Below are positions 2,673-59,044 of a DNA stretch of 61,697 bases, one piece after another. Origin of the DNA: a virus; the IMG/VR virus record IMGVR_UViG_3300047550_003451, positions 1 through 61,697 of that record; one strand, written 5' to 3'. The notes under the pieces were generated by a model. The model was not told the DNA's origin. It did not search any database and saw nothing but the letters and a program-made list of their open reading frames with translations. The number at the start of each line of letters is the position of its first letter. The first letter of the stretch is position 1. The translations under genes and the position numbers were made by a program.

Positions 2673-2685
2673 TAAGAATGACCTC

Positions 2686-11642: not shown

Positions 11643-11668
11643 CTGGTTGATCCTTGTTCACATATATT

Positions 11669-11676
11669 ATATTTAG
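11669..11676 (-). promoter_or_regulatory. Late promoter (CTAAATAT)
   Basis: A late-type octamer variant, CTAAATAT on the minus strand, 27 nt before the tailspike ATG. Confidence 0.45.
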
Positions 11677-11702
11677 GATGTGCCTGACAGGTGATTTTTT
11701 TG

Positions 11703-12953
<1,251 letters not shown>

Positions 12954-16177: not shown

Positions 16178-16290
16178 ATTGATACACGGACAAGAAGGCT
16201 CTTCGTTCTAATGCTTGCCTTCCATGGGGTTGAAAGGCCTCTTCTGTTGACATTAGCATGATCAACGTTGGAACATGGAAGGGAAAACGA

Positions 16291-25898: not shown

Positions 25899-25912
25899 TT
25901 TGTGTCCTTTTG

Positions 25913-27312: not shown

Positions 27313-30165
<2,853 letters not shown>

Positions 30166-30619: not shown

Positions 30620-30620
30620 A

Positions 30621-30959
30621 TTATGTATTGGCAGTTTCAACCAAACTCAATGTTATTTTCAATCCAGTATCTGCATCAGCTTGTCCAACTAACCTGTCGC
30701 CTTCTTCTAAAACCAATCTACCTGTGAGCATGGTTTTGGCGTCTTCAATAGGTATAGGACTGTTGGCAAGTAATTCAGTTTCTGTTCTTGCCCTCACATG
30801 TTTGAATGTAACTTTGCGTGTATTCAATGGATCCACATTTGCAACCTGTGCTAACAAGATGATCACAGTAACTCCAGTTGGACAAATATATAATGTTTGT
30901 GCAGTGGTCGTTAATTGTTTTGTGACGGTTTTAAACGTGTTCAAAGGCAAAACAGCCAT
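30621..30959 (-). CDS. Conserved phage protein, 112 aa
   Basis: AGGAAA precedes the ATG. The sequence alternates strands (YICPTGVTVIILLAQVANV, TRKVTFKHVRAR, LVLEEGDRLVGQA), indicating a small beta protein. Similar proteins, as far as I recall, sit beside tail-fibre genes in T4-like aquatic phages. It lies between the 2250-aa fibre and the 950-aa fibre and has its own late promoter, so it is probably a minor virion component. Confidence 0.55.
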   Translation of the reverse strand: MAVLPLNTFKTVTKQLTTTAQTLYICPTGVTVIILLAQVANVDPLNTRKVTFKHVRARTETELLANSPIPIEDAKTMLTGRLVLEEGDRLVGQADADTGLKITLSLVETANT

Positions 30960-31044: not shown

Positions 31045-34000
31045 TTAGGTTGTTTCAATACTCAAAACAAAGGGTGTTATTATACCCAATACACTTTTGT
31101 TGAAAACACGACCAGTCAAAGTACCACTGTTTTGATTGATTACTAATCCGTTACCAATACGAAAATCCCCCTTGTGATCAGTGCTAGTGTAATATACCTT
31201 TCCGCCCTTACGCATAACTACCTCATTGGATTGAACAGGAACACCTCCCAGTTTTGGTAAACACGTGTTGATGTCTGTGCCTGAGCCAACATATTCAAAG
31301 GTATGACTGCTGGCACTGGCCATACTTACCTGATAAAAGTTAACCGTTTCATAATCCAAGGGACAAAATTCCAATGATTCTTCCAAAGTTACAATAGTCT
31401 CTTTGTCCACAATGTAGCCCAAGGCATAAGCTCCACTACCTACCAGGTCACCTGCTACAGCATCCACAACTTGTGCTATTTTTTGTGTAAATGATTGCAG
31501 TTCAGCGGAACTAAATGTACCAGAATAGGTAGTGATTATATATTGTGTGAGCTCGGCTTGCAAGAATGCTTTGTTTAATCTTATCAGTTGGCTGGCACTG
31601 TTGAATCCTGAAAGTTCCGGTCCATTGGCAATGATAGCATTGATAATATCCACAACTAATGTAAGGGCATTGTTGATTAAAGGAATGCGAGTGGGAGATT
31701 GAGCCAGGATGGTTGTGTCTCGCATGAGAGTTTCAAGCTGATCAAAAGCAAGTTGAGTGGGCTGGGATTGAGCAACAGGAAGTTTGCTGACCATGCCATT
31801 CCAATATGCTCTGCCAGCTTTCAAACTATGTGCTATGCCTCCATGCTGTAAATCATAACTGATAGCATCAATCACATACCCTATATCACGGCTGCATTTG
31901 GTTTGGTCATAGGTCAACGAGGGATAGTTTGAATTAATCCAGCTTATCACACTACTTCTAAGACTGGTTCTGTTTGTTTGTAACCTTGTGTTCACATCAT
32001 CATATAGTGCTTGTTGAGCACTATTATTAGATGCTGCAATATATGTAGTTATATTATCAAAGAATGTAGTCACAGCAAGCGCGGCTGATATACCGTTAGT
32101 GAGGCTGGCATCGCTTTGAGGAGATACATTGGTTTGAAATGGTGAGCCTGGGTAACCTGCAGGAGCGTTGGTATTATTTTGAATTAAATTCAAACACCAA
32201 TCCCGCGCGTAATTGATGGCTGCAATTGTGGCTGTTTTTTGCGGAGAGTTAAGAGCCAGCTGCGTATATGATTTGCCTATGTCAAAGCCAAGACTCTCAT
32301 TACTAGTCATGCCAGGTGTGTGTGCCAGGCCAGTGGCAATCAAAGGACTACTAGATTCAACAGTGTAATATCTAGGATATAAAATAGCTTGTGCAATGGC
32401 AGGGCTGCCACCATTACCAATCACATCCCCGGCTATAGAATCAATCATTGTGCCTGCCAGTCTAGCTATATCTAACAAATCTATTGTCAGTCCAACCTGA
32501 ACAGAAGCCCAATTTACAGCCAGGGCCTGTAATAATTGTTTATTTTCTCTTATAATTTGGCTGCCATTTTGTAGATCCTGAATACTCAATCCAGTGTCAA
32601 TAGTATAATTCACAATATCCCATGCAGTGTTTGAATTTTCTAGAGCTCTAATACCGCCAGTATATCCTAGAGGAATAACTTGCACAACAAGGGTTTGTAA
32701 GGGGATCACAGCCTGCTTTTGAATAACCTGTGCCGCAAGTGATTTCAAGAAGGAAATGACATTTTTGACTTGTGTTTGTTGGCCTGGAATTAATGTTGTA
32801 CCATCATTCCAAAAAACATGACACGCCTGAATAGTCTTGACGTATCCAGCTACGCTTAGATCTATTGCAACAGCATCCACAAGTATTCCTATGTTCTGTA
32901 TCAATTCTATCAACTGTTGTGAGCTAAAAACTCCAGGATAAGTATTAGTCACATATTGTCTAATTTCTGCTTGCAAAAACGCTTTGTTGACCTGTAATAA
33001 TGATCTAGCATTGTCATAGGGTGCTAAAGTTGCACCATTGTAAGGAGCATAGTAAGGCGCAGTTGTAAAGTTATAGAAACTGGCAATGGTATTCCACAAA
33101 CAGTTGGTAATATTATTTGACAATGTTTGATAGATGGGATTTACAATAGGTGTAGTAATTTGTGTGGGATATCCCACTGGAATAGTCAAAGCTGTACCTG
33201 CTGTTATACTTGTAGTCCATGTACGAAGTTGAATAACCATGTTTCGCAGTATTGTTTGCTGGCTGTCAGCCAAAACAGTTAATGGACTGGATCCAGGCAA
33301 AACGCATGTGACACCATTCCAAAATGATCTGCCTGTGGACACAACCAAACTTTGTGCACCACCACCAGCAAATCTCACTTGAGGACCTGATATGTAACCG
33401 CTGCCTCCATCAGCAACACTTATGCTGTCTAGTCCCAAACTCAAATCAATTGTGCATCCACTTCCTCCTGCTGGATTGACTGTGGTGGGAGCTGCTGTAA
33501 TGCTGGGGATAACACTATAACGACCTGGTTGTAAAATTGCAACTTGTAAAACAGTGCCATTTACACCTGTAGCTGTAACACGCAATTTGATGGGTTGGCC
33601 TGTGCCTCCCACAATAGTAAGAATATCATTCACTTGGTAACCTATGCCACCGTTTGTGTATGTGTCAGTCACTAATGGACTGTCAGAAATCACTACATCT
33701 ACAGAATTAACTGTTGCATACACGGCTTTAAAATATACTATACTCACTGATGCACCACCCCCACTACTTCCGGAAAAAGTTATACTAGGAGTAAAACTAT
33801 AATTTTCGCCTGGATTGGTTATTCGTATGCTTGACACTGCGCCATTAACAACTTCACTAACAGCTGATGCACCCAGTCCCCCACCACCCTGTATGTTAAC
33901 AATAGGTTGAGATTTGTAACCATTGCCTTGACTGATCATAGAAACGGAAGAAATCGACCCTGATTCCATGTGAAAGTCTACTCTGGCTTTGGCTGTGCTT

Positions 34001-37000
34001 GCTCCTCCTCCACTTACAGTGAATATAGGACTGTAATATCCTTGGCCACCATCAGCAAGACTTACCTCCTTGATACCAAAATTGAGCGAGCAGGTAAATC
34101 CGTTTCCTGTACCAGTGGTGGTTGTAGGAGCACCACTCACAATAGGTAGTATATCGTATTCTCCCCTGCTGGATCCTTGAGTTCCATCCAGTAAAACACC
34201 AGTTACTGATCCATTCACATCCACAGTTAATACTGTGAGGATTACTGGAGTTTCTAAGTTTATGTCTGCAAATACGCCCCCTTCAACTGTAATCAAATCA
34301 TTCACACTATAACCTGCACCTCCTTCTAAAATTTCTACTGGATCTACTGCATTCACAGTGTATACCAATTGTTCAATTACAGCATTCTCCCCACTTACAT
34401 CGCGAATAGTCACACTAGCACCACCGGTATAATACTGACCTGAATTGTTGATTTGCAATGGGGAAGCAATTGTTCCAGTGGGAGCACTTATTGAGCTTGC
34501 ACTTACCTGTGCTTGTTGGCCAGCATATCCTATTGGAGGATCCACTATCACTGATGGTTCAGCTACATACCCATGTCCTTGATCCACAACAATAATCCTG
34601 TCTACATAACAGAATTCATCCGCAATACTAGCTACTAACCCCACATATGGACGATTGTTGATGCCGTCAACAACCATGTTGTTGACTCTATTTCTAGCAG
34701 TTCCTGCTTTGACATTGCCACCAAATAACCAAGGACTGGTGCCATCAGCCACAATACCCAAATCTCCAAAACTAGTGTTGCTATTGCTAATACTACAGTT
34801 GCCGCCTGTTTCTACCCAAGTTCCAATGCTACAGCATATTGTAAAGATACTAACCAATTGTGCGTATCCTTGATTTGTGATATGAATGCCTGGGCCGCCT
34901 TGGTTGAATTGTGTATATGAATCCAGCACCATGCTTTTTAAGCCGTGAGCAAGGTTGCCATCAACTTTCATTCCACCACCAGTTGTGTTGAAACAAGTGC
35001 AATTTTGCACATAGGGGGATGTGGTTATGGTGCCTGCTCCTCCCTCAATGCCTGGTGGCAAATCAGGATCACTTAGAGGTGGGAAAGCAATGGCATAACT
35101 AGGGGATTTGCCTCCTCTGAAACTGACACCGGCAATATAAACAGCATTGTTGACCCAAAAGAAGTCTTTTTCTGGATTGTTGTAGTAGAGATTCACACGT
35201 CTTAGATTGTCACCAATCACACCCACTCTTTCAGGCAAATAGATGGGATTGTTTTCATAATAATTTCCAGCCCTTATGAATATGGTTGTGAATGGTTTGG
35301 CAATTGCTGCTGCTGCTTTGACTGTTCTCTTGGCTCGATCTTCACTCAACCCATCATTGGCATCATTGCCATCTTGCGTAACATAGATAACATTTGTCAC
35401 CACAGGTGCTGTGCCCACAGCTGATCCGGTCACTAATAAATCGCCAATGCTCACTTTGGCTCCAGTCATCTCAGCTTGTAGACGAGCATTATTACGGCTG
35501 GGACTGGCTGTCACAGTCACCTGGGGAGTTTGTTCATACAGACTGCCTGGGTTGATCAATTCACAACCCACAATTCCATAACTGAGATTTACACTAGCAC
35601 CAGTGCCTCCTGGACTGCCTGTCTTGATAACAGGATTTTCTGTAGTTGTTGGTACAATAGAATAATATCCAGTGTCAGCTATGGCCAAACTATCAATTTC
35701 ACTGGTTAAATTGAACAATGCTAGAGTACCACTACCATTCTTGACTGGGTTTTCTATCATTTGAGGCAATATTTGATAAGGACCTTGGCGTTGTATAGTT
35801 GTTTGAGAAATTTCAGTATCAAATCGTACAATCAAACCATTGCCTGTACCACCCATCAGTGTATTAGCTTGCAAGCTGGGTGGTTGAGTATAGCTACCAT
35901 TACGAGTAGGTCTCCACGAAACATTTACTCTGGCATTGTTGCCACTACCGCCGTTCAAACTCAAGTTAACTGTATTACTACCTGTGGCAACTTTTGTGGG
36001 CAGTGCAGAGTATATTCCAGCCATGTTTATGGGTTCAAAGTCTACTATTGCACCGCTGCTGACTGTTTTTACTATCAATTGTGCTTGCATGCCAGCTAGG
36101 AATGTTCCTGCTGTAGTGTCACCAATGACTGCTCCCCCGCCAATGGTCAGCACGTCGCCAACTGTATAGCCTCCTCCTGCATTGTTTATGCTAATGCTAG
36201 CAAGTTCTTGATATTCAACAATCTTGGTGACCGCTCCTCCTAGCACGATTCTAACAGTTTGTGGAAGCTGAGCAGTAAAAAATACAACATGTGTTATGCT
36301 GCTAATTACAGTAAAAGTATAGTCTGATACATAATTTTGTTTACTACCAGCCACAGTCACAACCAAATTGTTCAGCTGATCAAATCTCAAAAGTAGTCCT
36401 GTGCTATACTGGGTTGTTGCAACACCAGCTCCAAAGGACAAATTTAAAATGATTGGATCAGCTTTGAGCGTGTATGTGGCAATTTCTGTGCCATTACCAC
36501 CAAATACCTCTACTACTTGATCGTCCTGATAACCCCATCCACCTTGGATAATTTCTGGCAAGATCAAACCTACTTCTGTAACAATGATAGTGGCAGGTGC
36601 AGGACCCAAACTAGAGTCTCCTGCAACTGTCAACACATCATTGGGTTTGTATCCTATGCCTTTGTTGTCCGGATCCACAAGGGCTGATCCTATTCTCACA
36701 GTGTCCACTCTCAAATAAGTGGGGGCAACAGCCATGCCACCTTGCACTTGTAAAATATCCCCCACATCATAACCTGTGCCACGATTGTAGGGGAATGCCA
36801 TCACAGCGCCCATTCTAGCTTCAGCTTGCGCTTGCACTCCAGCTCCTGAGGGGGGATCAATTGTGATGGCCGGCACACTGGTGTAACCTCCACCACTGTT
36901 GCGAATACTGATGCTGTTGACTTGTCCTTTTGCGTTGAGATTGAGCACACCTTGGTTGAGTATGTTGGTCACAGTATCATTGTTAATTTCAACTTGATCT

Positions 37001-37797
37001 ATCAAAATTTTGTCTGCAATCAGTTTTGTGCCATCAAATCTCACAGCACTGTTGCCAGCTAGTGTGCCAGCGTTGTTGTATTGCACACTTTGATCAGGTC
37101 CAGCTGGTTTGGTTGTGCCTGTGGGACCTGCTGGACCAGTGGGTCCGCCCGCTGGCCCTGCTGGCCCTTGCGCACCAGTTGCTCCTGTGGCACCTGTATT
37201 GGTGGCTGAGCCAGGCACACCAGTAGGTCCTTGTATGCCTGTTGCACCAGTTGCACCTGTGTTGGTAGCTGAGCCTGGTGCTCCAGTATGTCCAGTTGGA
37301 CCAGTTGGTCCTACACCACTGGCTCCTGTGGGTCCAGGATTGCCCATGCCTGGACCAGTGGCACCAGTAATACCTTGCAAGCTTACCCATTTGGTGCCCT
37401 GATAAAACTCAATGGTTTCCAAATCTGTATTGTAGCGAATCATACCACGACTGGAACCCACAGGAGCATTGCTGGGACGTTGAGCTGTACGGCCAACTGG
37501 CAATTTGAGTGCACTTGTACCAGGCACATCAAATGTATAGGCTAAATCTGTGGGTCTGAATCGCGTGACCACAAGTGTGCCACTGGGATCGCTTGTGAGA
37601 GTGACAGCATCACTCTGCACAGGACCAGTTCCTCCCAGCCTTAGAGTCAAATTTTGAGCAGAATTCAATTCAGTACGTGCAATTTCCAACTGCGTTCTGA
37701 TTTGAGCAAAGTTATCTCTCAGTTCTTGACTGGGATTGTCGCTGTTGGCTACGGGCACGTTGGGGTTGATGGCATCAGGATCTATGTTGCTGGTCAT
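31045..37797 (-). CDS. Giant 2250-aa virion fibre
   Basis: The N-terminus ([20 protein letters not shown]) is the attachment domain shared with the 22-23.6 kb genes. It is followed by the [16 protein letters not shown] peptide and a short collagen stretch (residues 145-235). Many GGGYxxxPxVxI beta repeats occur at about 290-800 and 1080-1500. A pectin-lyase-like helix opens with [20 protein letters not shown] near residue 820. Residues 1500-2100 are mostly helical repeats ([20 protein letters not shown], seen twice). The end ([19 protein letters not shown]) is a common fibre C-terminus in T4-like aquatic phages. Confidence 0.78.
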
Positions 37798-38036: not shown

Positions 38037-38792
38037 TTGAATAGAAGATTGAAACGCTCTACTAGAGCCAATCCTCGCGAAGATCGTATGGTTATGCACA
38101 AACATGCACATACCCATAATATCATTGAACTGTCTCAGTTCAACCAATCACTTGAGAAAGTTTGTTTGGTTCCCAAAAACGTGAATCAGGAAGCATACAT
38201 CGACAAACTGGAAGACCCACACGTGAACATTGTGTTTGCTGTGGGACCAGCTGGTTGCGGTAAAACAATGTTGGCCAGCCTGGTTGGCATACAGGAACTG
38301 CGAGCTGGTAGGGTGAAAAAAATCATCATAACAAGGCCAGCAGTAAGTGTGGATGAACAACATGGATTTTTGCCAGGTACGTTGGTAGACAAAATGCAGC
38401 CCTGGGTGCTGCCCATTTTGGACTACTTTTATCAATACTACAGCAAAAAACAAGTGTTGAGCATGTTGGAAAACGACATTATAGAAATAGTGCCATTGGC
38501 CTACATGCGTGGTAGGACATTTCATCACTGTTGGATTATTGGTGATGAATTTCAAAACAGCACCCCCAATCAAATGAAAATGTTGCTTACTCGAATCGGA
38601 ATGGGCAGCAAGATTGTGGTTACTGGTGACATACAACAACATGATAGAGGTTTTGAATTGAATGGATTGAAGGATATTGTGGGCCGTATAGATAATCAAC
38701 AAGCATTGAGTGTGTGTACATTTGACAATAGAGATATTGAACGTCATCCTGTGATTGACATTGTATTGAACATATATCAACAACCAGCTTGA
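38037..38792 (+). CDS. phoH: PhoH-like ATPase
   Basis: Walker A GPAGCGKT is at residues 70-77, followed by IITRPAVSVDE, HGFLPGTLVDKM and the Walker B region WIIGDEFQNSTPNQMKM, with VVTGDIQQHD further on. All are diagnostic of PhoH, a RecD-like NTPase of uncertain role common in aquatic phages. The start is a TTG with AAGGAG eight nt upstream; an ATG inside at residue 18 is possible. The perfect late promoter is unusual if phoH were only an early phosphate-stress gene. Confidence 0.88.
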   Translation: MNRRLKRSTRANPREDRMVMHKHAHTHNIIELSQFNQSLEKVCLVPKNVNQEAYIDKLEDPHVNIVFAVGPAGCGKTMLASLVGIQELRAGRVKKIIITRPAVSVDEQHGFLPGTLVDKMQPWVLPILDYFYQYYSKKQVLSMLENDIIEIVPLAYMRGRTFHHCWIIGDEFQNSTPNQMKMLLTRIGMGSKIVVTGDIQQHDRGFELNGLKDIVGRIDNQQALSVCTFDNRDIERHPVIDIVLNIYQQPA

Positions 38793-39058: not shown

Positions 39059-39083
39059 GTCCAAATTGTCAGAGTCAAGATTT

Positions 39084-39584
39084 ATGATGGATACAACCAA
39101 CAGTGCTTCAGAAGTTGTGAAAAACTTGTCTGCCAAGGATGACTTGTTGAACATTCTCATGGATGTGGAAAGTTATTTGGATGAAAGCAATTTGTATGTG
39201 TTTGATAATTGGATTGCTGGTGTGATCGTGAGTGGACCCATAATTAAAAAATATTGGATAGACATTATTCTCAAGTATGATCACAAACAAATGCCTGATC
39301 CTGATGGCGCTCTCAGACTCATACCTCATGGAACCAAAGTCAGATATCAAAAGGCTCATGAACAAGTGCCAGTTGAGGTCAAAACTCCGGATGATTATCA
39401 ACCTGGTACCAAAAAACCACGCATGAAAAAAATACCCATATGGTTGGTTCACATGCGCATTCCTAGACGGTTTGTGGATGCTATCCATCAAGATATACTG
39501 AACCAATATGAAGATCAAGTGGACGCGCCAGAGGATCTGCAAAATGCTCAAGATCAATTCATGCAAGGAGGCTCCACACGATGA
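39084..39584 (+). CDS. Conserved phage protein, 166 aa
   Basis: Two consecutive ATG codons follow the late promoter; the first is used here. The protein reads LNILMDVESYLDESNLYVFDNWIAG, then MPDPDGALRLIPHG and TPDDYQPGTKKPRMKK, then IWLVHMRIPRRFVD. I believe relatives occur next to head or tail genes of T4-like aquatic phages, but no function is established. The 4-nt overlap with the next gene implies coupled translation. Confidence 0.6.
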   Translation: MMDTTNSASEVVKNLSAKDDLLNILMDVESYLDESNLYVFDNWIAGVIVSGPIIKKYWIDIILKYDHKQMPDPDGALRLIPHGTKVRYQKAHEQVPVEVKTPDDYQPGTKKPRMKKIPIWLVHMRIPRRFVDAIHQDILNQYEDQVDAPEDLQNAQDQFMQGGSTR

Positions 39585-40297
39585 AAGCTCTGTTGGAAGG
39601 TTTGCGCGAAGGCGATTTGGAAAATATGGTATTGCCCATGCTAAGCATTGATGAATTTGACAGCAAGATTGACAATAACCAAATCATAGTAGTGGCATTT
39701 TTTTGCATGGAAGAAAATGCTGCACATGATCTCAGCAATTTTATTGAACGCAGTCCAACCAATGTGATTGACACAGACGTAAGTCCTGCACCAAATAGAG
39801 AAGGTTACTATTTGACTTTTGTGGAAATGCGCAGAAACAAATTGTTTGTACAATTATTATTACAGCTTTTACAAGAAGTCTCCAAACTCACACGTGTGTC
39901 AGATTGGCAATTTACTAGTTTTGCATTGCCCAAAGGCAAAATTGTAGAACTCAACCTGCACAATCTGCAAAAGCATGTGAAACTCAAAGCAGATCCCACC
40001 AATATGAAAGAAAAATTGCAAGAGTTTTTTGCTGCCAGCAGCTTGCATGATTTCCAATTGCAAGAAAACCACTTGATACTCTCTAGAGCAGGCATAGTTC
40101 ATGAATATGAGCTGGGTGATTTGATTGTTGATCGATTGCCAGAAATCACCATGTGCATGGAAAGCAATGCTGCCAGTGCTGCATTGCGATTGAGTAGGCT
40201 GTTGGATGGCACCTACAACGTACATGCAGTCATGGATGGACTGTTGGTTGAGAACACACAACTTGATCATTTTTTGCATCTAAAAATTGCCTCCTAG
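39581..40297 (+). CDS. Conserved phage protein, 238 aa
   Basis: The ATG overlaps the previous stop (ATGA) and has AAGGAGG upstream. Motifs of interest are MLSIDEFDSKI, a hydrophobic strand IIVVAFFCMEENAAHDL, and FIERSPTNVIDTDVSPAPNR. The C-terminal half is helix rich. No known domain is identified. Paired with the 166-aa protein it is probably part of the virion assembly block. Confidence 0.6.
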   Translation: MKALLEGLREGDLENMVLPMLSIDEFDSKIDNNQIIVVAFFCMEENAAHDLSNFIERSPTNVIDTDVSPAPNREGYYLTFVEMRRNKLFVQLLLQLLQEVSKLTRVSDWQFTSFALPKGKIVELNLHNLQKHVKLKADPTNMKEKLQEFFAASSLHDFQLQENHLILSRAGIVHEYELGDLIVDRLPEITMCMESNAASAALRLSRLLDGTYNVHAVMDGLLVENTQLDHFLHLKIAS

Positions 40298-42469: not shown

Positions 42470-42555
42470 GAATTGAGCGTGGTGCTCAATCACAGTGTGG
42501 AATGGTTTCACACTGTGCTAACTCCCCAAGTGCGCAGAGCACAGGAGAAAATCTA

Positions 42556-42750
42556 ATGGCACGTAACATGGAAATCAAACAGCGTGAATTCGATCAGAAA
42601 TTTGTAGTCTGGGCTGAAATTGATCATCCAGATGCTGATCGAGACTGGTATGTGAAAAATGGACTGCCAGTACCCAATCAGTGGGTGGCTGTGGCAGTAA
42701 CCCACACTAGGGAAGCTGCTATTCGAGCAATGCGTCAGACTAAAATTTGA
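42556..42750 (+). CDS. Hypothetical 64-aa protein with its own strong promoter
   Basis: AGGAGA precedes the ATG at 42556. The sequence MARNMEIKQREFDQKFVVWA...VTHTREAAIRAMRQ is a small alpha/beta protein of unknown family. Being the only gene here with a near-consensus host promoter, and closed by a strong terminator, it is a candidate immediate-early host-takeover factor. That role is inference. Confidence 0.6.
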   Translation: MARNMEIKQREFDQKFVVWAEIDHPDADRDWYVKNGLPVPNQWVAVAVTHTREAAIRAMRQTKI

Positions 42751-42759: not shown

Positions 42760-42794
42760 GAACAGTCAGACGCGCAAATCGCGTCTGACTGTTC
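42760..42794. terminator. Bidirectional hairpin terminator
   Basis: GAACAGTCAGACGCG-CAAAT-CGCGTCTGACTGTTC is a perfect 15-bp stem between convergent genes, followed by TTTCT on the plus strand. It also encodes the last residues of the leftward 161-aa gene. Confidence 0.75.
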
Positions 42795-43251
42795 TTTCTA
42801 TCAGTTTCAAGATTTCCTGTTGCTGATGGGGAGTGACAGGCGTTGTTTGTAGAATCTGTGCATCGTCAAACAATCCTTGGATCTGATCAATTGCTTGTTG
42901 CTGATTGGGTGCAATTACAAATGTCATCAAGTGGATGTCAGCAATAAAATTATTTTGGATATGTTCCAGCAACTGAGAGTTTTGCGATATCCACGCCTGC
43001 TCCAATGTTTGCTGCGTGACATTCATGGTGCTGACGCTGTGTGTACGTGGATGGTAGTCCGTGCCCTCTTTCAATATCCAAAAATCCCATGGAGTTTGGA
43101 TCTCTTTTTCACTCCATGTGCGCCATTTAATATAATATATTTGTTCCATCATTGCTGTATCCAAGTCACTTATGCTAGGTTGTAGCACTTGACTGTAGGT
43201 ATCTGATAACCACAGGTTGTGCTTCTTCAATTCAGTCAGTTGTTTGCACAT
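42766..43251 (-). CDS. Hypothetical 161-aa protein
   Basis: The ATG starts MCKQLTELKKHNLWLS. The middle (MEQIYYIKWRTWSEKE, then TPWDFWILKEG) is Trp rich and the C-terminal half helical. No family is recognised. A 40-nt piece covering its start codon and leader is duplicated at 55,434-55,473 beside an IS end. Confidence 0.5.
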   Translation of the reverse strand: MCKQLTELKKHNLWLSDTYSQVLQPSISDLDTAMMEQIYYIKWRTWSEKEIQTPWDFWILKEGTDYHPRTHSVSTMNVTQQTLEQAWISQNSQLLEHIQNNFIADIHLMTFVIAPNQQQAIDQIQGLFDDAQILQTTPVTPHQQQEILKLIERTVRRDLRV

Positions 43252-43516
43252 GTCAAACTGCCAAACAAACTTTTTGGTATTGGCATATTCATCAATGTTG
43301 ATCTTGAGTTAATAATTGTATAGATATCACACTGCTCCAACCACAGAACGCATTTGTTGCTGCTGTTGTGGGGTTGGATAAATCCTGTATCGATAAATCT
43401 ATTTATATAATTCAATCACAAGCCTCTATCCATCATAAATAGAGTAAAAGCTGCTATCCATGCACGGTGTATAATTATTTGGCTGGTGACAGCAGAATTA
43501 AATTTATGGGGTACTC
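43252..43516. other. Leader region of the prkA operon
   Basis: No ORF. It contains a CATAAATA late-type octamer at 43434-43441, 76 nt before prkA, set inside two partial copies of the type B motif (GCCTCTATCCATC and GCTGCTATCCATG). The left part holds AT-rich sequence with CGATAAATC. The leader seems to have been remodelled by element insertion. Confidence 0.45.
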
Positions 43517-45460
43517 ATGAATCTGTTACAGGAATACCAAAATAATTTTCGTCAAGTGCAACAACAGGAATATTCCCTGCTGGAATATTTGGAATTATGC
43601 AAACAAGACCCATTGGCTTATGCAACTGCGGCTGAACGAGTGTTGAATGCCATTGGTGAACCCACTGTGATTGACACCAGCAAAGAAGACAGATTGAGTC
43701 GCATATTCATGAATAGAACAATTCAAGTATGGCCTGAGTTTGCTGAATTTTACGGCATGGAAGAAACTATAGAACGAGTGGTGGGTTATTTCAAACATGC
43801 AGCACAAGGCCTGGAAGAAAAGAAGCAAATCTTGTATTTGTTGGGGCCTGTGGGCGCAGCCAAAAGCAGTTTGGCTGAAAAAATCAAAAGCTTGGTAGAA
43901 CGGCACCCCATTTATGTTCTCAAGGCGCAATCCATGATCAGCCCAGTTTTTGAAAGCCCATTGGGATTGTTTGATCCTCATTCAAATATTACACAAAAAA
44001 TACAACAGACCTATGAAATTCCTGCGAGATATTTTACTGGACTGCCCAGTCCATGGGCACTCAAGAGGTTGCAGGAAATGCAGGGAGATATCAATCAATT
44101 CTCTGTGGTTAAAATTTGGCCCAGCAAACTCAATCAGGTGGCTGTGGCAAAAACTGAACCTGGTGATGAAAACAATCAGGACATCAGTTGTTTGGTTGGT
44201 AAAGTGGATATCCGTCAATTGGAACACTACAGTCAAAATGATCCTGACGCCTACAGTTACAGTGGGGCGTTGTGCAGAGGCAATCAGGGTGTGACTGAGA
44301 TGGTGGAAATCTGGAAAGCCCCCATCAAGGTTTTGCATCCTTTGTTGACTGCTACTCAGGAGGGCAACTATGTGGGCACGGAAGCCATAGGAGGAATACC
44401 CTTTCAAGGTATAGTGTTTGCTCACAGCAATGAGAGTGAATGGCAAACTTTCCGTAATAATAAAACCAATGAAGCCTTTCTGGATCGCATTTGTGTGATC
44501 AAAGTACCCTATTGTTTGCGTACAACTGAGGAACAAAAGATCTACGAAAAATTGTTGCGTAACAGCAGTTTGGGTCATGCCCCATGTGCACCCAAAACCT
44601 TGGAAATTCTCAGTCAATTTTGTGTGCTCACCAGGCTGCGTGATCATGAAAACAGCACACTGTGGAGCAAAATGCGAGTTTACAATGGTGAAAATATACG
44701 GGACACTGATCCACGCGCCAAAACCATCGTAGAATACAAAGAAACTGCTGGTGTGGATGAAGGCATGGAAGGCATCAGCACCAGGTTTGCATTCAAAATA
44801 CTCAGTCAAACTTTCAATTTTGACACACATGAAGTGGCTGCAGATCCAGTGCACCTCATGTATGTTTTGGAGCAAGCAATCAAAAGAGAACAATATCCAG
44901 AAGAACAACAAAACAAATATTTGGAATTTATCAAATCCCATATTACTCCCAAATACATGGAATTTTTGGAAAAAGAATTACAAAAAACGTATTTGGAAAG
45001 TTATGATGAATATGGTCAAAATATCTTTGATAGATACACAGCCTATGCAGATGCGTGGATCAGCGACGCTGATTACAAGGACCCTGACACAGGACAAATG
45101 CTCAATCGAGATCATCTAAACCGGGAATTGGAAAAAATTGAAAAGCCGTCAGGTATTGCCAATCCTCGTGATTTTCGCCATGAGTTTGTTAATTACGTGC
45201 TGAGAGCCAGAGGACGTGTGGAGAATGCAGGCAACAATCCCAAATGGACTGATTATGAAAAATTCCGCCAAGTGATTGAGAAAAAGATTTTCAGCAGCAC
45301 AGAAGAATTACTGCCAATCATCAGTTTTGGTAGCAAAAAAAGCAGTGAAGACATGGCAAAACATGAGGGGTTTGTGCAACGCATGGTATCTCAAGGTTAT
45401 ACTGCCACTCAGTGCAGAAGACTTGTGGAATACTATATTAGGCAAAGCAAAAGCAGCTGA
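43517..45460 (+). CDS. prkA: PrkA-type serine protein kinase (YeaG family)
   Basis: The 647-aa length matches bacterial PrkA/YeaG. The AAA domain has a P-loop at residues 110-118, GPVGAAKSS, where bacterial proteins have GPVGGGKSS; the change to Ala keeps the key Lys. QGIVFAHSNESEW, FLDRICVIKVPYCLR and VDEGMEGISTRFAFKILSQTFNFD are family signatures, and the C-terminal kinase-like domain is complete. In Enterobacteria it works with YeaH and YcgB in starvation responses; in Bacillus it affects sporulation and protease activity has been proposed. GGGG lies nine nt before the ATG. It heads an overlapping five-gene operon. Confidence 0.88.
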   Translation: MNLLQEYQNNFRQVQQQEYSLLEYLELCKQDPLAYATAAERVLNAIGEPTVIDTSKEDRLSRIFMNRTIQVWPEFAEFYGMEETIERVVGYFKHAAQGLEEKKQILYLLGPVGAAKSSLAEKIKSLVERHPIYVLKAQSMISPVFESPLGLFDPHSNITQKIQQTYEIPARYFTGLPSPWALKRLQEMQGDINQFSVVKIWPSKLNQVAVAKTEPGDENNQDISCLVGKVDIRQLEHYSQNDPDAYSYSGALCRGNQGVTEMVEIWKAPIKVLHPLLTATQEGNYVGTEAIGGIPFQGIVFAHSNESEWQTFRNNKTNEAFLDRICVIKVPYCLRTTEEQKIYEKLLRNSSLGHAPCAPKTLEILSQFCVLTRLRDHENSTLWSKMRVYNGENIRDTDPRAKTIVEYKETAGVDEGMEGISTRFAFKILSQTFNFDTHEVAADPVHLMYVLEQAIKREQYPEEQQNKYLEFIKSHITPKYMEFLEKELQKTYLESYDEYGQNIFDRYTAYADAWISDADYKDPDTGQMLNRDHLNRELEKIEKPSGIANPRDFRHEFVNYVLRARGRVENAGNNPKWTDYEKFRQVIEKKIFSSTEELLPIISFGSKKSSEDMAKHEGFVQRMVSQGYTATQCRRLVEYYIRQSKSS

Positions 45461-46749
45461 TGAGTACTATAATTGACCGGCGTCTCAATCAGGGGCAAAA
45501 AAATCTAAGCAACAGGCAAAGATTTATCAAACGCAGCCGGGAGCATATACAAAAAAGCATACGTGAAAATTTACAAAATCGCAGCATACAGGATGTACAC
45601 AGTGGTGAAAAGGTCAAAGTTCCCACTGACAGTATTAGAGAACCCACTTTTGGGCATGATTGGCAGTCAGGTACAAAAAAACGTGTGTTACCAGGCAACA
45701 AGGATTATGTGCCCAGTGATCGGATCAGTCGTCCAGAGGGACAAGGATCCGGATCAGGCACTGGAAACCAGGCCAGCAACGATGATCAAACATTTGAGGA
45801 TGATTTTGCCTTTACGTTGACCAAAGAGGAATTTTATGATCTGTTTTTTGAAGATTTAGAATTGCCTGATCTTGTCAAAAAACAACTCAAACAAACCAGC
45901 AAATGGGAAGTCAGACGCGAAGGCATCAGCACTGTGGGCAACCCCAGCAACTTGAATGTCATACGCACAATGAAAAGCAGTTTGGGTCGTAGATTGGTTT
46001 TGCGTAAACCACATGAAAAACAGTTGCAAGATCTCATGGATCAACTGGATCAACTGGATGAGCTTGACCCACTTCGTCCGCAGTTGGAACAACAAATACA
46101 AGCACTCACAAGCAAAGTGCGCAGTGTGTCTTATGTGGATCCCATTGATTTGCGATACAATGTTTTCAACAAACGTAGAGTACCCAGCACCAGTGCAGTG
46201 ATGATTTGCATCATGGATGTGAGTGGCAGCATGGATGAACACAAAAAAGATTTGGCCAAAAGATTTTTCATGCTGCTGTATTTGTTTTTACAAAAAAAAT
46301 ATGAAAATGTGCATGTGGAATTTGTAAGACATCATACTGAAGCCAGTAGAGTGGATGAACATACATTTTTTTACGATAAATTAACAGGTGGTACAATTGT
46401 AAGCAGTGCTCTAGAACTCACCAAAGAACAAATTTTACCAGAATATGATTCTCATACACACAACATTTATATATGTCAGGTGAGTGATGGAGACAATTGG
46501 GAAGATGATAATCCCAAATGTAGACAAATATTACTGGATGATTTGTTGCCCGCTGTACAATATATGGCATATATAGAAATTACTGACAGTAAATTCGCAG
46601 AAGAATATCCATTGCTAAACTACTACAATAGCAGATTGTTTAATACCTACCAAACTGTGCATCATAACAATCCCAAACTACAAATAGCCAAAGTGGCCAC
46701 TGCCAACGACATCTACAAAGTTTTTAGGAACTTGTTCGAGAAAAAATAA
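45460..46749 (+). CDS. yeaH: YeaH/YhbH-family protein (DUF444) with VWA-like domain
   Basis: The 429 aa match the length of E. coli YeaH (427). The N-terminal IIDRRLNQGQKNLSNRQRF is the family start. A Gly/Ser-rich linker is near residue 95, and the C-terminal VWA domain has the metal site D253-x-S255-x-S257 in IMDVSGSMDE, plus FFYDKLTGGTIVSSAL with the conserved Thr. In bacteria it is encoded between prkA and spoVR, as it is here apart from the added clpP. The start overlaps the prkA stop (TGATG). Probable scaffold or adaptor for PrkA. Confidence 0.88.
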   Translation: MSTIIDRRLNQGQKNLSNRQRFIKRSREHIQKSIRENLQNRSIQDVHSGEKVKVPTDSIREPTFGHDWQSGTKKRVLPGNKDYVPSDRISRPEGQGSGSGTGNQASNDDQTFEDDFAFTLTKEEFYDLFFEDLELPDLVKKQLKQTSKWEVRREGISTVGNPSNLNVIRTMKSSLGRRLVLRKPHEKQLQDLMDQLDQLDELDPLRPQLEQQIQALTSKVRSVSYVDPIDLRYNVFNKRRVPSTSAVMICIMDVSGSMDEHKKDLAKRFFMLLYLFLQKKYENVHVEFVRHHTEASRVDEHTFFYDKLTGGTIVSSALELTKEQILPEYDSHTHNIYICQVSDGDNWEDDNPKCRQILLDDLLPAVQYMAYIEITDSKFAEEYPLLNYYNSRLFNTYQTVHHNNPKLQIAKVATANDIYKVFRNLFEKK

Positions 46750-47282
46750 TGGACAGTACAATTGATCAATCATTGTGGGACAAGGGTATTTGTATGGTGT
46801 TTGGAGAAATTGACGATTGTACCAGTCGCCAAGTGGCTGAATTTATTTTACACCATAACCTACAATCAAAGTGTGACCATCTACAGTTGGTGATCAACAG
46901 TCCTGGTGGATGTTTGGTCAACAGTTGGTGTATTGTGGATCTAATAAATATCAGCACATTGCCAGTATATACCTTGGGCATGGGACAGGTCAGCAGTGGT
47001 GCACTGTTGATTCTCATGGCCGGCAAACAGGGACATAGATATGTTAGCAAACATTGCACAATAATGACACATCAATTTATGGGTGAATGCGAAGGCAAAG
47101 TTCATGAATTGCAAGTGGTAATGCAAAATTTCCAAAAATCACATGAACAAATGATTGAATTTTATCAGCAATGCACTCTCTTGTCGCGTGAACAAATTTT
47201 AGAAAAATTGTTGCCTGCACACGATGTTTATTTAGAACCAGAACAAGCCCTGCAAATGGGCATGGTTGATAGGATAGTATAG
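46749..47282 (+). CDS. clpP: ClpP-like serine protease
   Basis: ClpP forms barrel-shaped tetradecamers that degrade proteins fed by ClpA or ClpX. The triad is intact: S83 in QVSSGALL, H108 in MTHQ, and D159 in AHDVYLEPEQAL, which aligns with D171 of E. coli. VINSPGG is the oxyanion loop region. Length (177 aa) corresponds to mature ClpP without a propeptide. The start overlaps the YeaH stop (TAATG). Bacterial prkA operons do not normally contain clpP, so its place here suggests a regulated-proteolysis role. A ClpA homologue is encoded at 59 kb. Confidence 0.88.
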   Translation: MDSTIDQSLWDKGICMVFGEIDDCTSRQVAEFILHHNLQSKCDHLQLVINSPGGCLVNSWCIVDLINISTLPVYTLGMGQVSSGALLILMAGKQGHRYVSKHCTIMTHQFMGECEGKVHELQVVMQNFQKSHEQMIEFYQQCTLLSREQILEKLLPAHDVYLEPEQALQMGMVDRIV

Positions 47283-47283
47283 C

Positions 47284-48774
47284 ATGAGCGATCTTTTATT
47301 TGACAGTGATGATTGGACTTTTCCCATGTTGGAAAAATTTATCCTTCATGTGGAAAAAATAGGACGGGAGGATTTGGGCTTTAGCTTGTATCCAAACCAA
47401 ATAGAAGTGATCAGCAGCAGTCAAATGCTGGATGCTTACAGCAGTATTGGTATGCCTGTTATGTACAACCATTGGAGTTTTGGCAAGAAACTCATCCAAG
47501 ACACGAAAAAATATCAAAAAGGTCACATGGGCCTGGCGCTAGAAATAGTGGTCAACACCAATCCTTGTATTGCCTATCTCATGGAAGAGAACAGTAGTAT
47601 GATGCAACTGTTGGTGTTGGCACATGCTAGTGTGGGACACAATTTTTGTTTTGCAAACAATTATATGTTCAAAACATGGACTGATGCAGACAGCATCATT
47701 GACTATCTCAATTTTGCCAAAAATTATATTGCTGAGTGTGAACAAAAATATGGCATGGCTGAAGTTGAGAAAATCTTGGACAGTTGTCATGCGCTCATGC
47801 ACAATGGTGTGGATAAATATACACGTGCACGCAAATTGAATGCCAAACAGGAAGAACAACGGCAACAGGCAAGATTGGCCCACTATGCGCAAACACAAAC
47901 TGAGTTGTGGTATGTGCTGGATCCGCGAAAACAACCAGAAACCACTATGGATACAAACATTCTCACTGAGCCAGAAGAAAACATCTTGTATTTTATTGAA
48001 AAAAATAGTCCCATTCTAAAACCTTGGCAAAGAGAACTGGTGAGAATTGTACGCAAAATCAGTCAATATTGGTATCCACAAATGTTTACCAAAGTTCTCA
48101 ATGAAGGGATAGCCACATTCACACATTATTGGATTCTCAACACAATGTATGATAGAGGCCAACTGTCTGATGGACACATGATGGAGTGGCTAAGCAGTCA
48201 TGCTAATGTTGTGTTTCAACCCAGCTATGATGATCCTAGATTTCAAGGAATCAATCCCTATGCCCTGGGATTTGCAATTTTCAGAGACATACAACGCATG
48301 TGCCTTGATCCTACTCCTGAAGATATACAGTGGTTTCCCAAGTTAAAAAATGCGGATTGGAAAAGTGTTGTTCGTCAAGCTGCCACTGAATATAGAGATG
48401 ACAGTTTTGTTCAACAATGGCTCAGTCCCAAAGTGGCCAGAGACCTCAAATTATTTGGTATTAGAGACAGCCAAGACGAAAATCATATTTGGGTAGACGC
48501 TATCCACAATGAACAAACTTTTGTAAACCTGCGTTTGATGCTATCAGAACAATATGATGTGAATGCACACATGCCCACTATACTGGTCACCAAAGCTGAT
48601 CTAAAAGGAGATCGCACTTTACATTTGGAACATTTGAGACATATGAATCGCGATTTGGACAACAATACTACAACCATCCTTGCCCATGTTCACAGATTGT
48701 GGGGTTATCCGGTCAAACTAAACAGTGTGACTGCCCAAAAACATATCATGCAAACATTCAACTATAGTGGATAA
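47284..48774 (+). CDS. spoVR: SpoVR/YcgB-family protein
   Basis: 496 aa against 510 in E. coli YcgB. Signatures are EENILYFIEKNSPILKPWQR, VRKISQYWYPQ, KVLNEGIATFTHYWIL and INPYALGFAIFRDIQRMC. SpoVR was named for a spore-cortex role in Bacillus; its biochemical activity is unknown, but it is genetically tied to PrkA and YeaH. The start is one base after the clpP stop. Having all three partners contiguous argues for a working complex rather than stray acquisition. Confidence 0.88.
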   Translation: MSDLLFDSDDWTFPMLEKFILHVEKIGREDLGFSLYPNQIEVISSSQMLDAYSSIGMPVMYNHWSFGKKLIQDTKKYQKGHMGLALEIVVNTNPCIAYLMEENSSMMQLLVLAHASVGHNFCFANNYMFKTWTDADSIIDYLNFAKNYIAECEQKYGMAEVEKILDSCHALMHNGVDKYTRARKLNAKQEEQRQQARLAHYAQTQTELWYVLDPRKQPETTMDTNILTEPEENILYFIEKNSPILKPWQRELVRIVRKISQYWYPQMFTKVLNEGIATFTHYWILNTMYDRGQLSDGHMMEWLSSHANVVFQPSYDDPRFQGINPYALGFAIFRDIQRMCLDPTPEDIQWFPKLKNADWKSVVRQAATEYRDDSFVQQWLSPKVARDLKLFGIRDSQDENHIWVDAIHNEQTFVNLRLMLSEQYDVNAHMPTILVTKADLKGDRTLHLEHLRHMNRDLDNNTTTILAHVHRLWGYPVKLNSVTAQKHIMQTFNYSG

Positions 48775-48783
48775 ACATACACA

Positions 48784-49014
48784 ATGAGCAAGGAAGATCA
48801 GATACAAGTGCAGGGCACTGTGGTGGAAGTTTGCCCCAATGCCCTGTTTAGAGTCAAGTTAGAAAATCAAGTTGTAATTTTGGCACATATAAGTGGCAAA
48901 CTTAGAATTCATAATATCAACATTCATTTAAATGACGTTGTGACTGTGGAAATGAGTCCTTATGATTGGCAAAAAGGACGCATCATTTTCCGTCAACGCA
49001 GACACAAAACATGA
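48784..49014 (+). CDS. infA: Translation initiation factor IF-1
   Basis: IF-1 is an OB-fold protein that binds the ribosomal A site with IF-2 and IF-3. The 76-aa protein aligns end to end with bacterial IF-1: [28 protein letters not shown] and [14 protein letters not shown] correspond to its RNA-binding face. A short basic tail (RQRRHKT) is extra. It is the last gene of the operon, nine nt after spoVR, with no strong Shine-Dalgarno, so translation may be coupled. A phage IF-1 could bias initiation toward phage mRNAs. Confidence 0.9.
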
Positions 49015-51440: not shown

Positions 51441-51744
51441 GTGAAGTACCACGCCCTAAGGGCTGTGGCTTCCTGCTAGATTCCAGTTCACCTTTAGCCA
51501 ATGAGTTTAGGCATTGGTGTGTTCCGGTCCACAGGTGAAATTTTTTTACGGACTCAGGGCACTTCCTGCCCTAGTCCCTGCGATATTGCTACCGGTATAT
51601 TCCAAGCCCGCGAGGGCTCTTGCTACATCACTAATACTAATTATACATAGAGGTTAACACAAATGCAATATGTATCAAAAAAATATTTCAATCACAAGCC
51701 ACTATCCATCCATGGCCCAAAGGCGCCCTGGCTTTCCGCGGCAT
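51441..51744 (-). mobile_element. Gene-less IS605-type element (MITE), copy 3
   Basis: Same plan as copies 1 and 2, from GTGAAGTACCACGCCC to a slightly shortened type B hairpin (51698-51743, ending GCGGC without GGGAGG). The interior keeps GATATTGCTACCGGTATAT and CCCTAGTCCCTGC with a few changes. The first bases outside its right end, ACAAGGAGTTAGTGTGCG, are the ribosome-binding site and start of the glycosyltransferase gene. Confidence 0.72.
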
Positions 51745-53000: not shown

Positions 53001-54161
53001 CTAAAAATTGCCAGGGACAAAATTGGTTATTTTGTCCACAGATTGTCTTATTTGTCTGGCCCCTGCAACAGTACCTAGAGGATGGCTATGAATACCACCA
53101 CCACTATTAGCTAGCCAATCTACACCAAATTTTTCAACTATGGGTGGGATTAAATCTGCTGTCAAGCCACAGCTTAAAGCTGGAGTTACATTTCCATCAG
53201 TGAGTATCTTCATTGTCATACGCAGTTCTGTTTCTGGATCTGACAGGTAACCACCCCACATGCCAGCATGTATAGTATCAACTCCACACCACGCTGCCAG
53301 TTGACAACAAAGCTGCCAAGATATGGAAAAATAGTTTTGTTGATGAGTAAACACTTTGTCACCGCTCTTTTGATAATGAATATAAAGAGGTAAATCAAGA
53401 TCACGTATGCTCTTATAAGAACCCAATCCACTCCAAACGTTGATATGCACACCACGACCTCCGTTTTGTGCAACAAATTTGGCCCTCGGCACTATATATG
53501 CAGGATCAGCATTTATACAAAAGCAGTAAACTACCTTGGTGTTATGAATGTATTTGCTGATAAGCTCCACCCTATCCTCCAATCTACAAATTGCTGGATT
53601 ACTCATGATTTCATCTTCTTTGATGAAATCAACACCACCATCCACCAGCTGTTTGGTTATGTCCAACAACTGTTGTGGAGTAATACCAGTCTTGGGCTTG
53701 ACAATGCCACCAAAAAGTGGTTTATTGTATTGCCCTGTAAGTTGACGAAACCCGCTAAGACCGTATTTGGGTTTTTGGAAATTTGCAGCAACATATGCTG
53801 GGCTGAACTCTAGACTGAGAGCACGACAGCGGCGTATGCGATCAATATCAGTGTTTCCTCCCATGATCATACAAACCAACTGGGCCACACCATCAGTGGC
53901 CCAGTCAATGTTAGCTAGGGGGAAACCAATTTCAACTAATCCTGTTGGTTTGTCAAGATCTGGCCCCTGCAAGATTTTGCAGCAATAATCTTCTATCATT
54001 TGTGGAGTTTCCCACACACTTCTCATGGATGGATTTCCCACAGACTGGCCTACTGCTAAATCGTATGCAGCTTCTCGCACAGTTGTTGAACTGGTAATTT
54101 GATATAATACATAATAGTAGTTGTCTAGATCTTTGTAATCTTGGTAAATATCCATGGTCAT
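53001..54161 (-). CDS. RuBisCO-like protein (form IV type)
   Basis: The 386-aa protein has the large-subunit barrel. GGIVKPKTGI holds K155 (catalytic Lys), and GGVDFIKEDE holds the carbamylated K181 and metal ligands D183 and E184. DTIHAG gives H298, and SGGGIHSHPLGT is the phosphate loop. Two residues needed for carboxylation are replaced: the Arg after H262 is Tyr (Y263), and the loop-6 Lys is Tyr in MWGGYLSD. It therefore most likely performs an enolase or isomerase-type reaction like RuBisCO-like proteins of sulphur salvage. GAGGA precedes the ATG. Neighbours are a cupin and a nucleotidyltransferase, suggesting a sugar substrate. Confidence 0.85.
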   Translation of the reverse strand: MTMDIYQDYKDLDNYYYVLYQITSSTTVREAAYDLAVGQSVGNPSMRSVWETPQMIEDYCCKILQGPDLDKPTGLVEIGFPLANIDWATDGVAQLVCMIMGGNTDIDRIRRCRALSLEFSPAYVAANFQKPKYGLSGFRQLTGQYNKPLFGGIVKPKTGITPQQLLDITKQLVDGGVDFIKEDEIMSNPAICRLEDRVELISKYIHNTKVVYCFCINADPAYIVPRAKFVAQNGGRGVHINVWSGLGSYKSIRDLDLPLYIHYQKSGDKVFTHQQNYFSISWQLCCQLAAWCGVDTIHAGMWGGYLSDPETELRMTMKILTDGNVTPALSCGLTADLIPPIVEKFGVDWLANSGGGIHSHPLGTVAGARQIRQSVDKITNFVPGNF

Positions 54162-55300: not shown

Positions 55301-55644
55301 TTGTCCCCCGTCAACTTAATTTTAATTTTGCTGTAATTGTGTTAGAATTGCAATTAAGGGGAAATTATTCAGGACATATGTGAACTCCCACGCCCTAAAG
55401 GGCTGTGGCTTTCTGCTTGATCGTAGTAGCTGACAGTTGTTTGCACATGTCAAACTGCCAAACAAATTTTTTGTTTATCTCTTGGAGCGGAAGGTCACTG
55501 GCTTTCAAGCCAGTGGATGGATAGCGAGTGGTATAACTAGGGATATCGTAGTTTCATCAATCTATTTATATAATCTATTCAAACAGCCGCTATCCATCCA
55601 GGGCCTAAAGGCGCCTGGCTTTCCGCGGCGGGAGGTAGGTGACA
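55301..55644. other. Composite transposon debris
   Basis: From left to right: a type A end in reverse (55380-55412), the arm TTCTGCTTGATCGTAGTAGCTGA, and a 40-nt piece (55434-55473) copied from the start of the 43.25-kb gene. A stem CACTGGCTT/AAGCCAGTG with GGATGGATAGCG and an AT-rich stretch with TATTTATAT follow. A perfect type B hairpin (55585-55636) closes it, and its GGGAGG is the ribosome-binding site of the next gene. Confidence 0.65.
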
Positions 55645-57917: not shown

Positions 57918-58113
57918 TCCCGCCGCGGAAAGCCAGGGCGCTAGAGTCCCTGGATGGATAACGGCATTTGACTCTATTATGTGTACTACCACGCCCTAAA
58001 GGGCTGTGGCTTCCTGCTTGATCGTGCTGGCTGATATCTCACTCAGGGGGGAAATGTCAGCCACTAGGATCAAGCAGCCTGCTGTTGGTCTAATAAACCA
58101 ACAGCAGTTCACC
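57918..58113. mobile_element. Palindromic fusion of two element ends
   Basis: A reversed type B hairpin (57918-57965) precedes a 130-bp unit at 57981-58113. The unit reads type A hairpin, CTGCTTGATC, GGCTGA...TCAGCC, GATCAAGCAG, then CTGCTGTTGGT-CTAATAA-ACCAACAGCAG and TTCAC. The two halves are right ends of the two hairpin types joined head to head, so the unit can fold back on itself. No coding sequence remains. Confidence 0.65.
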
Positions 58114-58177
58114 TGAGCAATCTTGTGGCACTGTCTAGGGGCTTGATTTGTGGAGCACAATTTATTAGACTTTGTCC

Positions 58178-59044
58178 ATGCAGGACCTTTATAAAATACT
58201 TGGAGTGGATGAATCAGCCACTCAGGAACAAATCAAAAAAGCTTTTCGCCAACTGGCCAAACAATATCATCCGGATAATCAACAACAGGGCAATGATCAA
58301 AAATTCAAAGAAATCAATCAAGCCTACGAAATTTTGAGTGATAGTGTCAAAAGGCAACAATATGATCAACAGAGAACATTTGGCAGCGGATTTCAACAAT
58401 GGCATCATGCTGGTGGGTCAGCTCCTTTTGAATTTCATGCTAATTTTGGTGGCAATATCAATGACATTTTTGAAAATTTGTTTGCTAGGGGAGGATTCAA
58501 TCCATTTGCCCAGTCTAGACCCATGCGCAATGCTGATCAGGTAGTTCAGTTAACCATCACTTTGGAAGATGCTTTTGTTGGCACAAGCATGCCAGTGCAA
58601 TGGACCAACAGCAACCAACAAACCACCCAATTGAACATTAACATTCCTTCTGGCATAGAACACGGCACACGGCTGCGTTATCCAGGCAATGGATCTCGTA
58701 ATAATGCCAATCTTCCTCCTGGAGATCTGATCATCATAGTGCACATACAACCTCACCCCAAATTTGAACGACAAGCAGCTAATTTGATCACCACTCTAGA
58801 ATTGACTATTTGGGAAAGTTTAGTGGGCACTGAAAAAATAATCCAAACCATTTGTAATCAACAAGTGAAAGTTACCATTCCAGCATTGTGTAATCCCAAC
58901 ACAGTGTTGAGAGTGAGCAACAAAGGTATGCCCTTGACCTCAGGATCAAACAGCCGTGGTGACCTTTTGATCAGACTCAACATACCCATGCCCAAAAGTC
59001 TCACACCACAGCAAATTAGCACGATCCAAAGCTGGATCAAATAG
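58178..59044 (+). CDS. dnaJ: DnaJ-type co-chaperone (class B, CbpA-like)
   Basis: The J domain covers residues 1-65 with the HPD tripeptide at 31-33, which stimulates DnaK ATPase. A Gly/Phe-poor linker follows ([20 protein letters not shown]). Two C-terminal beta domains ([16 protein letters not shown]...; [12 protein letters not shown]...) and a final [12 protein letters not shown] complete it. The Cys-rich zinc domain of class A is absent, so it resembles CbpA. The ATG is preferred over a TTG two codons upstream. The gene precedes clpA by 26 nt, probably in one transcript. Confidence 0.85.

Follow-up and report, generated by a model that had tools for sequence, protein, structure and literature searches.

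Gene organization of the locus

The DNA analysed here, a 61.7-kb linear record of the IMG/VR database that represents a fragment (IMGVR_UViG_3300047550_003451, positions 1 to 61,697; hereafter the window), carries five tightly packed genes on the plus strand, in which the three genes of a PrkA-YeaH-SpoVR cassette are interleaved with a phage-type ClpP and followed by translation initiation factor IF-1. The first cassette gene (43517–45460, 647 amino acids, aa) encodes a PrkA/YeaG-type AAA+ protein with the PrkA C-terminal domain, as seen in the Pfam matches to AAA_PrkA (6.5e-168, residues 20–380) and PrkA C-terminal (8.6e-67, residues 384–639). The second (45460–46749, 429 aa) encodes YeaH, a von Willebrand A (VWA) domain protein matching DUF444 (7.5e-151, model positions 2–418 of 418), in which the residues of the metal ion-dependent adhesion site (MIDAS), D253, S255, S257, T312 and D343, are invariant in the alignment at the DxSxS, T and SDGD positions. 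The ClpP gene (46749–47282, 177 aa; CLP_protease 4.7e-33) matches the ClpP fold profile and retains the catalytic triad Ser83-His108-Asp159. It is followed by the third cassette gene, encoding SpoVR with its SpoVR_C domain (47284–48774, 496 aa; SpoVR 2.3e-144, SpoVR_C 1.1e-18; also supported by alignment), for which no solved structural relative was found by sequence profile, and by the gene for IF-1 (48784–49014, 76 aa), whose S1-type eIF-1a/IF-1 domain (1e-23) spans residues 7–70 and model positions 1–64 of 64. All five proteins cover their Pfam models essentially end to end. An earlier sequence-only reading had described five full-length genes on one strand with overlaps or gaps of at most nine nucleotides (nt) and a complete bacterial PrkA-YeaH-SpoVR set; open reading frames, junctions and Pfam matches bear out both statements, and the three cassette genes stand in the bacterial order.

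The window PrkA shares 54–66% identity with other phage PrkAs. Its Walker A motif reads GPVGAAKS where GPVGGGKS is usual, with the lysine and serine retained, and the replacement of the glycine before the lysine by alanine recurs in L015 (GPVGSAKS; here and below, L-numbers are labels of compared contigs or loci).

PrkA and YeaH are joined by a 1-nt stop-start overlap (TGATG), as are YeaH and ClpP (TAATG), which suggests that translational coupling has been kept on both sides of YeaH; ClpP and SpoVR are separated by 1 nt and SpoVR and IF-1 by 9 nt. From this packing the five genes are predicted to form one co-transcribed operon. Within the operon no conspicuous intrinsic terminator was seen, the pattern matches there being at the level of shuffled sequence; matches to the sigma-70 promoter were no better than in shuffled sequence either and were disregarded. 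A 40-nt direct repeat, 98% identical between its copies, lies just 5' of the operon (43237–43276) and 5' of the gene at 55639 (55434–55473) and is a possible shared regulatory site.

The PrkA-YeaH-SpoVR cassette in phages and bacteria

Scans of viral contigs returned 255 stretches that encode PrkA relatives and 253 that encode SpoVR relatives, counts that are raised by duplicates of the same phage and by some fragments of bacterial origin. Among the loci examined, the order PrkA-YeaH-SpoVR was found in 143 viral ones, with some contigs counted in more than one scan, and in 69 of 80 bacterial ones; clustering leaves about 70 distinct viral lineages with all three genes. In E. coli, yeaG and yeaH lie together and ycgB lies elsewhere. 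The viral contigs bearing the cassette include some of more than 300 kb with a terminase; a terminase was found in 14 of the 37 cassette contigs tested and a tail-sheath match in two others. SpoVR accompanies PrkA-YeaH in nearly all cassette loci, and across phages the three genes are strongly correlated in their distances (Mantel r 0.82, 0.86 and 0.87; none of 2000 permutations reached these values). The three genes are inherited together as a portable cassette, which is common in large phages and nearly always keeps the bacterial order.

In trees, most viral cassette sequences form several ancient phage clades that lie apart from the bacterial clades. The 'viral' rows L012, L013, L127 and L128 fall within bacterial groups and are possibly host DNA. 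A shared origin of the cassettes of the window, L166 and L168 was not rejected for PrkA (approximately unbiased test, p-AU 0.61) and was borderline for SpoVR (0.068), so that these values do not distinguish one insertion before IF-1 from several. In one contig pair (L109 and L110), YeaH and SpoVR are each broken into two overlapping frames, through decay or sequencing errors. A match labelled LAU1 and isolate contigs with YeaH at the contig end were excluded because they are probably host DNA next to prophages. Many small phage records with yeaH or yeaG-yeaH at one end (IMG/VR loci L504–L546 and GenBank MN688132) probably likewise hold host DNA left beside prophages and would make viral yeaH look commoner than it is.

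ClpP and IF-1 as phage genes with histories of their own

In the ClpP tree the window protein falls into a phage clade (support 99/95) that is separate from every bacterial ClpP tested and comprises the copy before IF-1 in Sinorhizobium phage Phosso, L183, L141 and six more; further relatives, those of L426 and L429 below among them, were found only through an alignment of the clade, a single-protein scan of viral contigs having returned no matches. A second, bacterial-like kind of ClpP occurs in jumbo phages of this comparison, namely Agrobacterium phage Atu_ph07, the second Phosso copy, L083 and L196. ClpP without a cassette stands directly upstream of IF-1 in L426 (38 nt), where the close match to the phage clade lies in the same gene island as that of the window, described below, and in L429; Phosso, which shares that island, has its same-clade ClpP upstream of IF-1 with a MutT gene in between. 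PrkA, YeaH and SpoVR are absent from the vicinity in both Phosso and L426. Across about 150 viral and 80 bacterial cassette loci a ClpP between YeaH and SpoVR was never seen; it occurs only in the window, and the exact five-gene order is known from one assembly. Several other viral loci have a ClpP within about 10 kb of the cassette. Judged from tree and gene order, ClpP is a gene with a phage history of its own and not part of the cassette.

The adjacency of SpoVR and IF-1 recurs in two other phages, IMG/VR 3300037313_002210 (L166/L366, 28 nt between the matches) and 3300024239_000011 (L168/L370, 97 nt). Both carry the window's island with the cassette directly upstream of IF-1 in the order PrkA-YeaH-SpoVR-IF-1, but lack the ClpP; L166 has an open reading frame of 86 aa at the corresponding place and L168 nothing of note. 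As the pairs ClpP-IF-1 and SpoVR-IF-1 each occur separately in other phages, the window combines both neighbours of IF-1.

The contig is, by gene content and order, a genuine phage related to the jumbo phages Phosso and Atu_ph07. Its phage genes include large tail-fibre proteins, a T4-type clamp loader, a GroES-like head morphogenesis protein, PhoH, DnaJ and ClpA, and its backbone is syntenic with both phages over clamp loader, GroES, PhoH, structural genes A and B, DnaJ and ClpA. Both flanks of the operon match in order the backbone genes of Phosso, Atu_ph07 and independent IMG/VR contigs. The lineage shares an island of PhoH (38037–38792, plus strand; profile and synteny), the conserved virion-structural-type genes A (39066–39584, plus strand; its Atu_ph07 homologue is annotated as virion structural protein) and B (39581–40297, plus strand; matching virion structural proteins of many jumbo phages), a variable slot, IF-1, a further variable slot, DnaJ (58172–59044, plus strand; Pfam DnaJ and DnaJ_C, synteny) and a ClpA-type unfoldase (59071–61362, plus strand; profile and synteny). 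In the window the first slot is occupied by the cassette with its interleaved ClpP. The ClpA-type protein carries an LGF loop at the position of the IGL ClpP-docking loop of E. coli ClpA and is likely, on this motif, the partner of a ClpP; its gene is conserved in ten cassette-bearing contigs. IF-1 beside DnaJ-ClpA is a conserved gene order in L374–L377 and other jumbo phage contigs, reminiscent of E. coli, where clpA and infA lie close together.

The slot can be compared directly with relatives. L375, L376 and L377 have PhoH, structural A, structural B, IF-1, DnaJ and ClpA contiguously, with the slot empty and the cassette present elsewhere on the contig. L285, a close relative from another metagenome whose RuBisCO-like protein is 79% identical to that of the window, has in window order structural A and B, a homologue of the left neighbour gene (42502–42750, plus strand; by synteny conserved in L285 and L286, where it bounds the cassette-free site on the left), a small divergent gene, IF-1, glycan genes, DnaJ and ClpA. 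PrkA, YeaH, ClpP and SpoVR are absent from the operon site of L285, although the flanks and IF-1 are the same, and neither a PrkA relative nor this ClpP was found elsewhere on that contig, itself a fragment. Since the same flanks and IF-1 occur with the four genes absent, the four-gene block is what distinguishes the window from L285 here. The L285 homologue of the window's divergent gene (42766–43251, minus strand; similarity weak but colinear) directly adjoins IF-1, which places the block between that gene and IF-1. The block would have been gained in the window lineage or lost in the L285 lineage, and IF-1 is, from this synteny, a resident of the phage backbone and not part of the cassette.

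The proposal of a complete module wired to proteolysis and translation initiation therefore needs division: the phage setting, the complete three-gene set and the single packed operon stand, while ClpP and IF-1 are not module parts, given their separate phage origins and cassette-free loci. Unrelated origins of the five genes and a single-assembly arrangement had been named as grounds for doubt; PrkA, YeaH and SpoVR proved co-inherited (Mantel r 0.82–0.87), but ClpP and IF-1 are indeed separate and the five-gene order indeed singular.

Relation to known systems

The bacterial counterpart operon responds to stationary phase, (p)ppGpp and nitrogen starvation (PMC3188799; PMC4664914), in agreement with the earlier statement that the set is co-encoded and starvation-regulated. 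In R. etli, prkA heads a confirmed three-gene operon and is the strongest (p)ppGpp-induced gene (PMC3188799). That operon (CH02817–CH02815) has the same three families, order, strand and full-length domains as the window but is uninterrupted, whereas the window has ClpP inserted and IF-1 at the 3' end, in a phage genome.

Individual phage homologues have been annotated before. Ralstonia jumbo phage RsoM2USA, whose genome was not among the tblastn matches of this analysis, has an annotated PrkA (648 aa, ORF30) and SpoVR (ORF28), separated by room for one gene the size of yeaH; the text of that paper names neither ClpP nor IF-1 and does not treat PrkA and SpoVR as a module (PMC8504454). The Thermus phages phiYS40, TMA, MN1 and phiLo resemble the window in that genes for SpoVR and a VWA protein lie near that of a PrkA-like kinase, but differ in identity (about 27%), in the order VWA-SpoVR-PrkA and in having no ClpP or IF-1 in the stretch. 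The huge phages LR745206, LR756502 and LR756504 (PrkA 57–58% identical) have PrkA and YeaH close together and SpoVR adjacent or elsewhere on the genome; ClpP and IF-1 do not accompany the cassette, and other ClpPs lie elsewhere on the genome. In the open-access literature no paper was found on PrkA-YeaH-SpoVR as a phage module or with ClpP inside, most subscription papers being unsearchable. What is new here is that an operon known from bacteria recurs as a cassette in phages and is merged in the window with a phage ClpP-IF-1 locus; single annotations of phage PrkA or SpoVR are older.

Proposed role and alternative explanations

We favour, at slightly better than even probability, an auxiliary module in which a phage copy of PrkA-YeaH-SpoVR adjusts the slow or starved host while sharing a transcript with phage ClpP and IF-1. 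During infection the phage would make its own copy of the bacterial growth-arrest module, consisting of the AAA+ protein PrkA, the VWA protein YeaH and SpoVR, which would bring the host into, or keep it in, a stress-adapted state able to withstand a long infection. ClpP from the same transcript would pair with the phage ClpA to degrade selected proteins, and IF-1 would support initiation on phage mRNA; a shared transcript need not imply that PrkA and ClpP act in one complex.

Several points weigh against this reading. Timing and physiological role are extrapolated, and the use in starved hosts, already suggested by the sequence-only reading, would still be drawn by analogy from the bacterial genes. 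Purified B. anthracis PrkA, an AAA+ protein, has negligible kinase and protease activity (PMC13001217), contrary to an earlier report of protease activity for B. subtilis PrkA, and even bacterial PrkA is contested as a kinase (PMC13001217). The window PrkA, YeaH and SpoVR form long branches of unresolved position in the trees. Moreover, Phosso, L285 and L286 have no cassette at the site, which means that it is not essential to the lineage.

That the slot before IF-1 simply gathers accessory genes, the five-gene order being a recombination accident kept because the slot is transcribed and the cassette having no functional tie to ClpP or IF-1, is unlikely but deserves serious weight. The slot content does vary, from the cassette without ClpP (L366, L370) over ClpP without the cassette (L426, L429, Phosso) to neither (L285) or nothing at all (L375–L377), and ClpP lies within the cassette in a single assembly; such packing, however, fits less well with SpoVR-IF-1 adjacency in three divergent phages, with ClpP about 10 kb or less from the cassette in several other viral loci and with the coupling suggested by the overlaps around YeaH. 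The AAA+/VWA pair could instead act as chaperone and cochaperone in virion assembly rather than as a host stress module, as a comparative study proposes for MoxR-vWA of group 2.2 jumbo phages (PMC7824862), and the cassette does have two structural-type genes as neighbours and shares its island with DnaJ and ClpA. This is rather improbable, as the significant profiles are AAA_PrkA and DUF444 and not MoxR, SpoVR nearly always travels with the pair, the position of the cassette relative to structural genes differs between phages (L033 versus L036) and close relatives lack it.

A functional interleaving, in which the PrkA AAA+ ring with YeaH as adaptor would serve as unfoldase for the phage-type ClpP, has a low probability; such a PrkA-ClpP protease, if real, would supply the long-sought biochemical role of the set. 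About equally improbable is a part for the cassette in countering host growth-arrest defences by blunting abortive infection mediated by toxin-antitoxin systems. In nitrogen-starved E. coli, YeaG lowers transcription of the toxin-antitoxin operons mqsRA and dinJ-yafQ (PMC4664914), but this effect is known from one host and one condition and is probably indirect, and the surroundings of the operon showed no evident defence or counter-defence genes, although no scan with a defence library was made. The chance that bacterial DNA was assembled onto a phage contig, named earlier as a possible refutation, is very slight: some IMG/VR and GenBank records do carry yeaG or yeaH as a prophage host flank (LAU1 and many 7.3-kb loci with YeaH at the contig end), but here the operon is flanked left and right by phage genes that follow the order seen in L285, Phosso and L366, the IF-1 gene and both flanks match L285 from another metagenome, and the window PrkA forms a long branch of its own that is not nearer to the bacterial than to the phage sequences.

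In bacteria, PrkA-YeaH-SpoVR forms a strongly conserved stress operon whose biochemical role is unsettled, and its recurrence as a co-inherited phage cassette means that the set travels as a unit into foreign genomes, which offers dozens of natural versions for testing. Viral spoVR, which was reported to exceed all other sporulation-type auxiliary genes in abundance in an oxygen-minimum-zone virome and has so far been read as a sporulation gene (PMC8940887), is recast as part of a general starvation module as in Proteobacteria. The island of ClpP, IF-1, DnaJ and ClpA links this module, at least by transcription, to phage protein turnover and translation.

Other features of the window

A RuBisCO-like protein (53001–54161, minus strand; E 2.8e-32 to RuBisCO_large) keeps the KPK and KEDE motifs, and its HGHR and loop-6 lysine positions look changed. 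Relatives occur in 153 IMG/VR stretches; in most of the 80 examined the neighbours are, as in the window, two small genes (51754 and 54205) and a nucleotidyltransferase (54563). No match was found in the GenBank phage set. The viral family is barely described, with one landfill viral RbcL-like protein reported (PMC12607003).

A search of the window against Rfam found no RNA family. A tRNA with a CAU anticodon (2079–2155, plus strand) is closely followed by a TilS-type PP-loop protein (ATP_bind_3; 2614–3642, plus strand), and the two could supply lysidine-modified tRNA-Ile for AUA codons. TnpB/Cas12f-like zinc-ribbon fragments (3951–4268, 8687–9163, 15622–16008 and 30360–30689) and many dispersed TTTAGGGCGTGG-type ends in intergenic repeats (for example 9–236, 14751–14996, 25910–26156, 51459–51682, 55377–55433 and 57978–58034), with which no intact transposase was seen in the window, are presumably remnants of IS605-like elements or their guide RNAs. 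An S-adenosylmethionine decarboxylase (16258–16656, plus strand; AdoMet_dc 2.3e-27) and an IscA-type Fe-S protein (17662–18003, plus strand) have homologues close to the cassette in a small number of further viral loci. Several tail-fibre genes contain collagen-like 9-nt tandem repeats (10434–12953, 22073–23146, 27316–30165 and 31048–37797).

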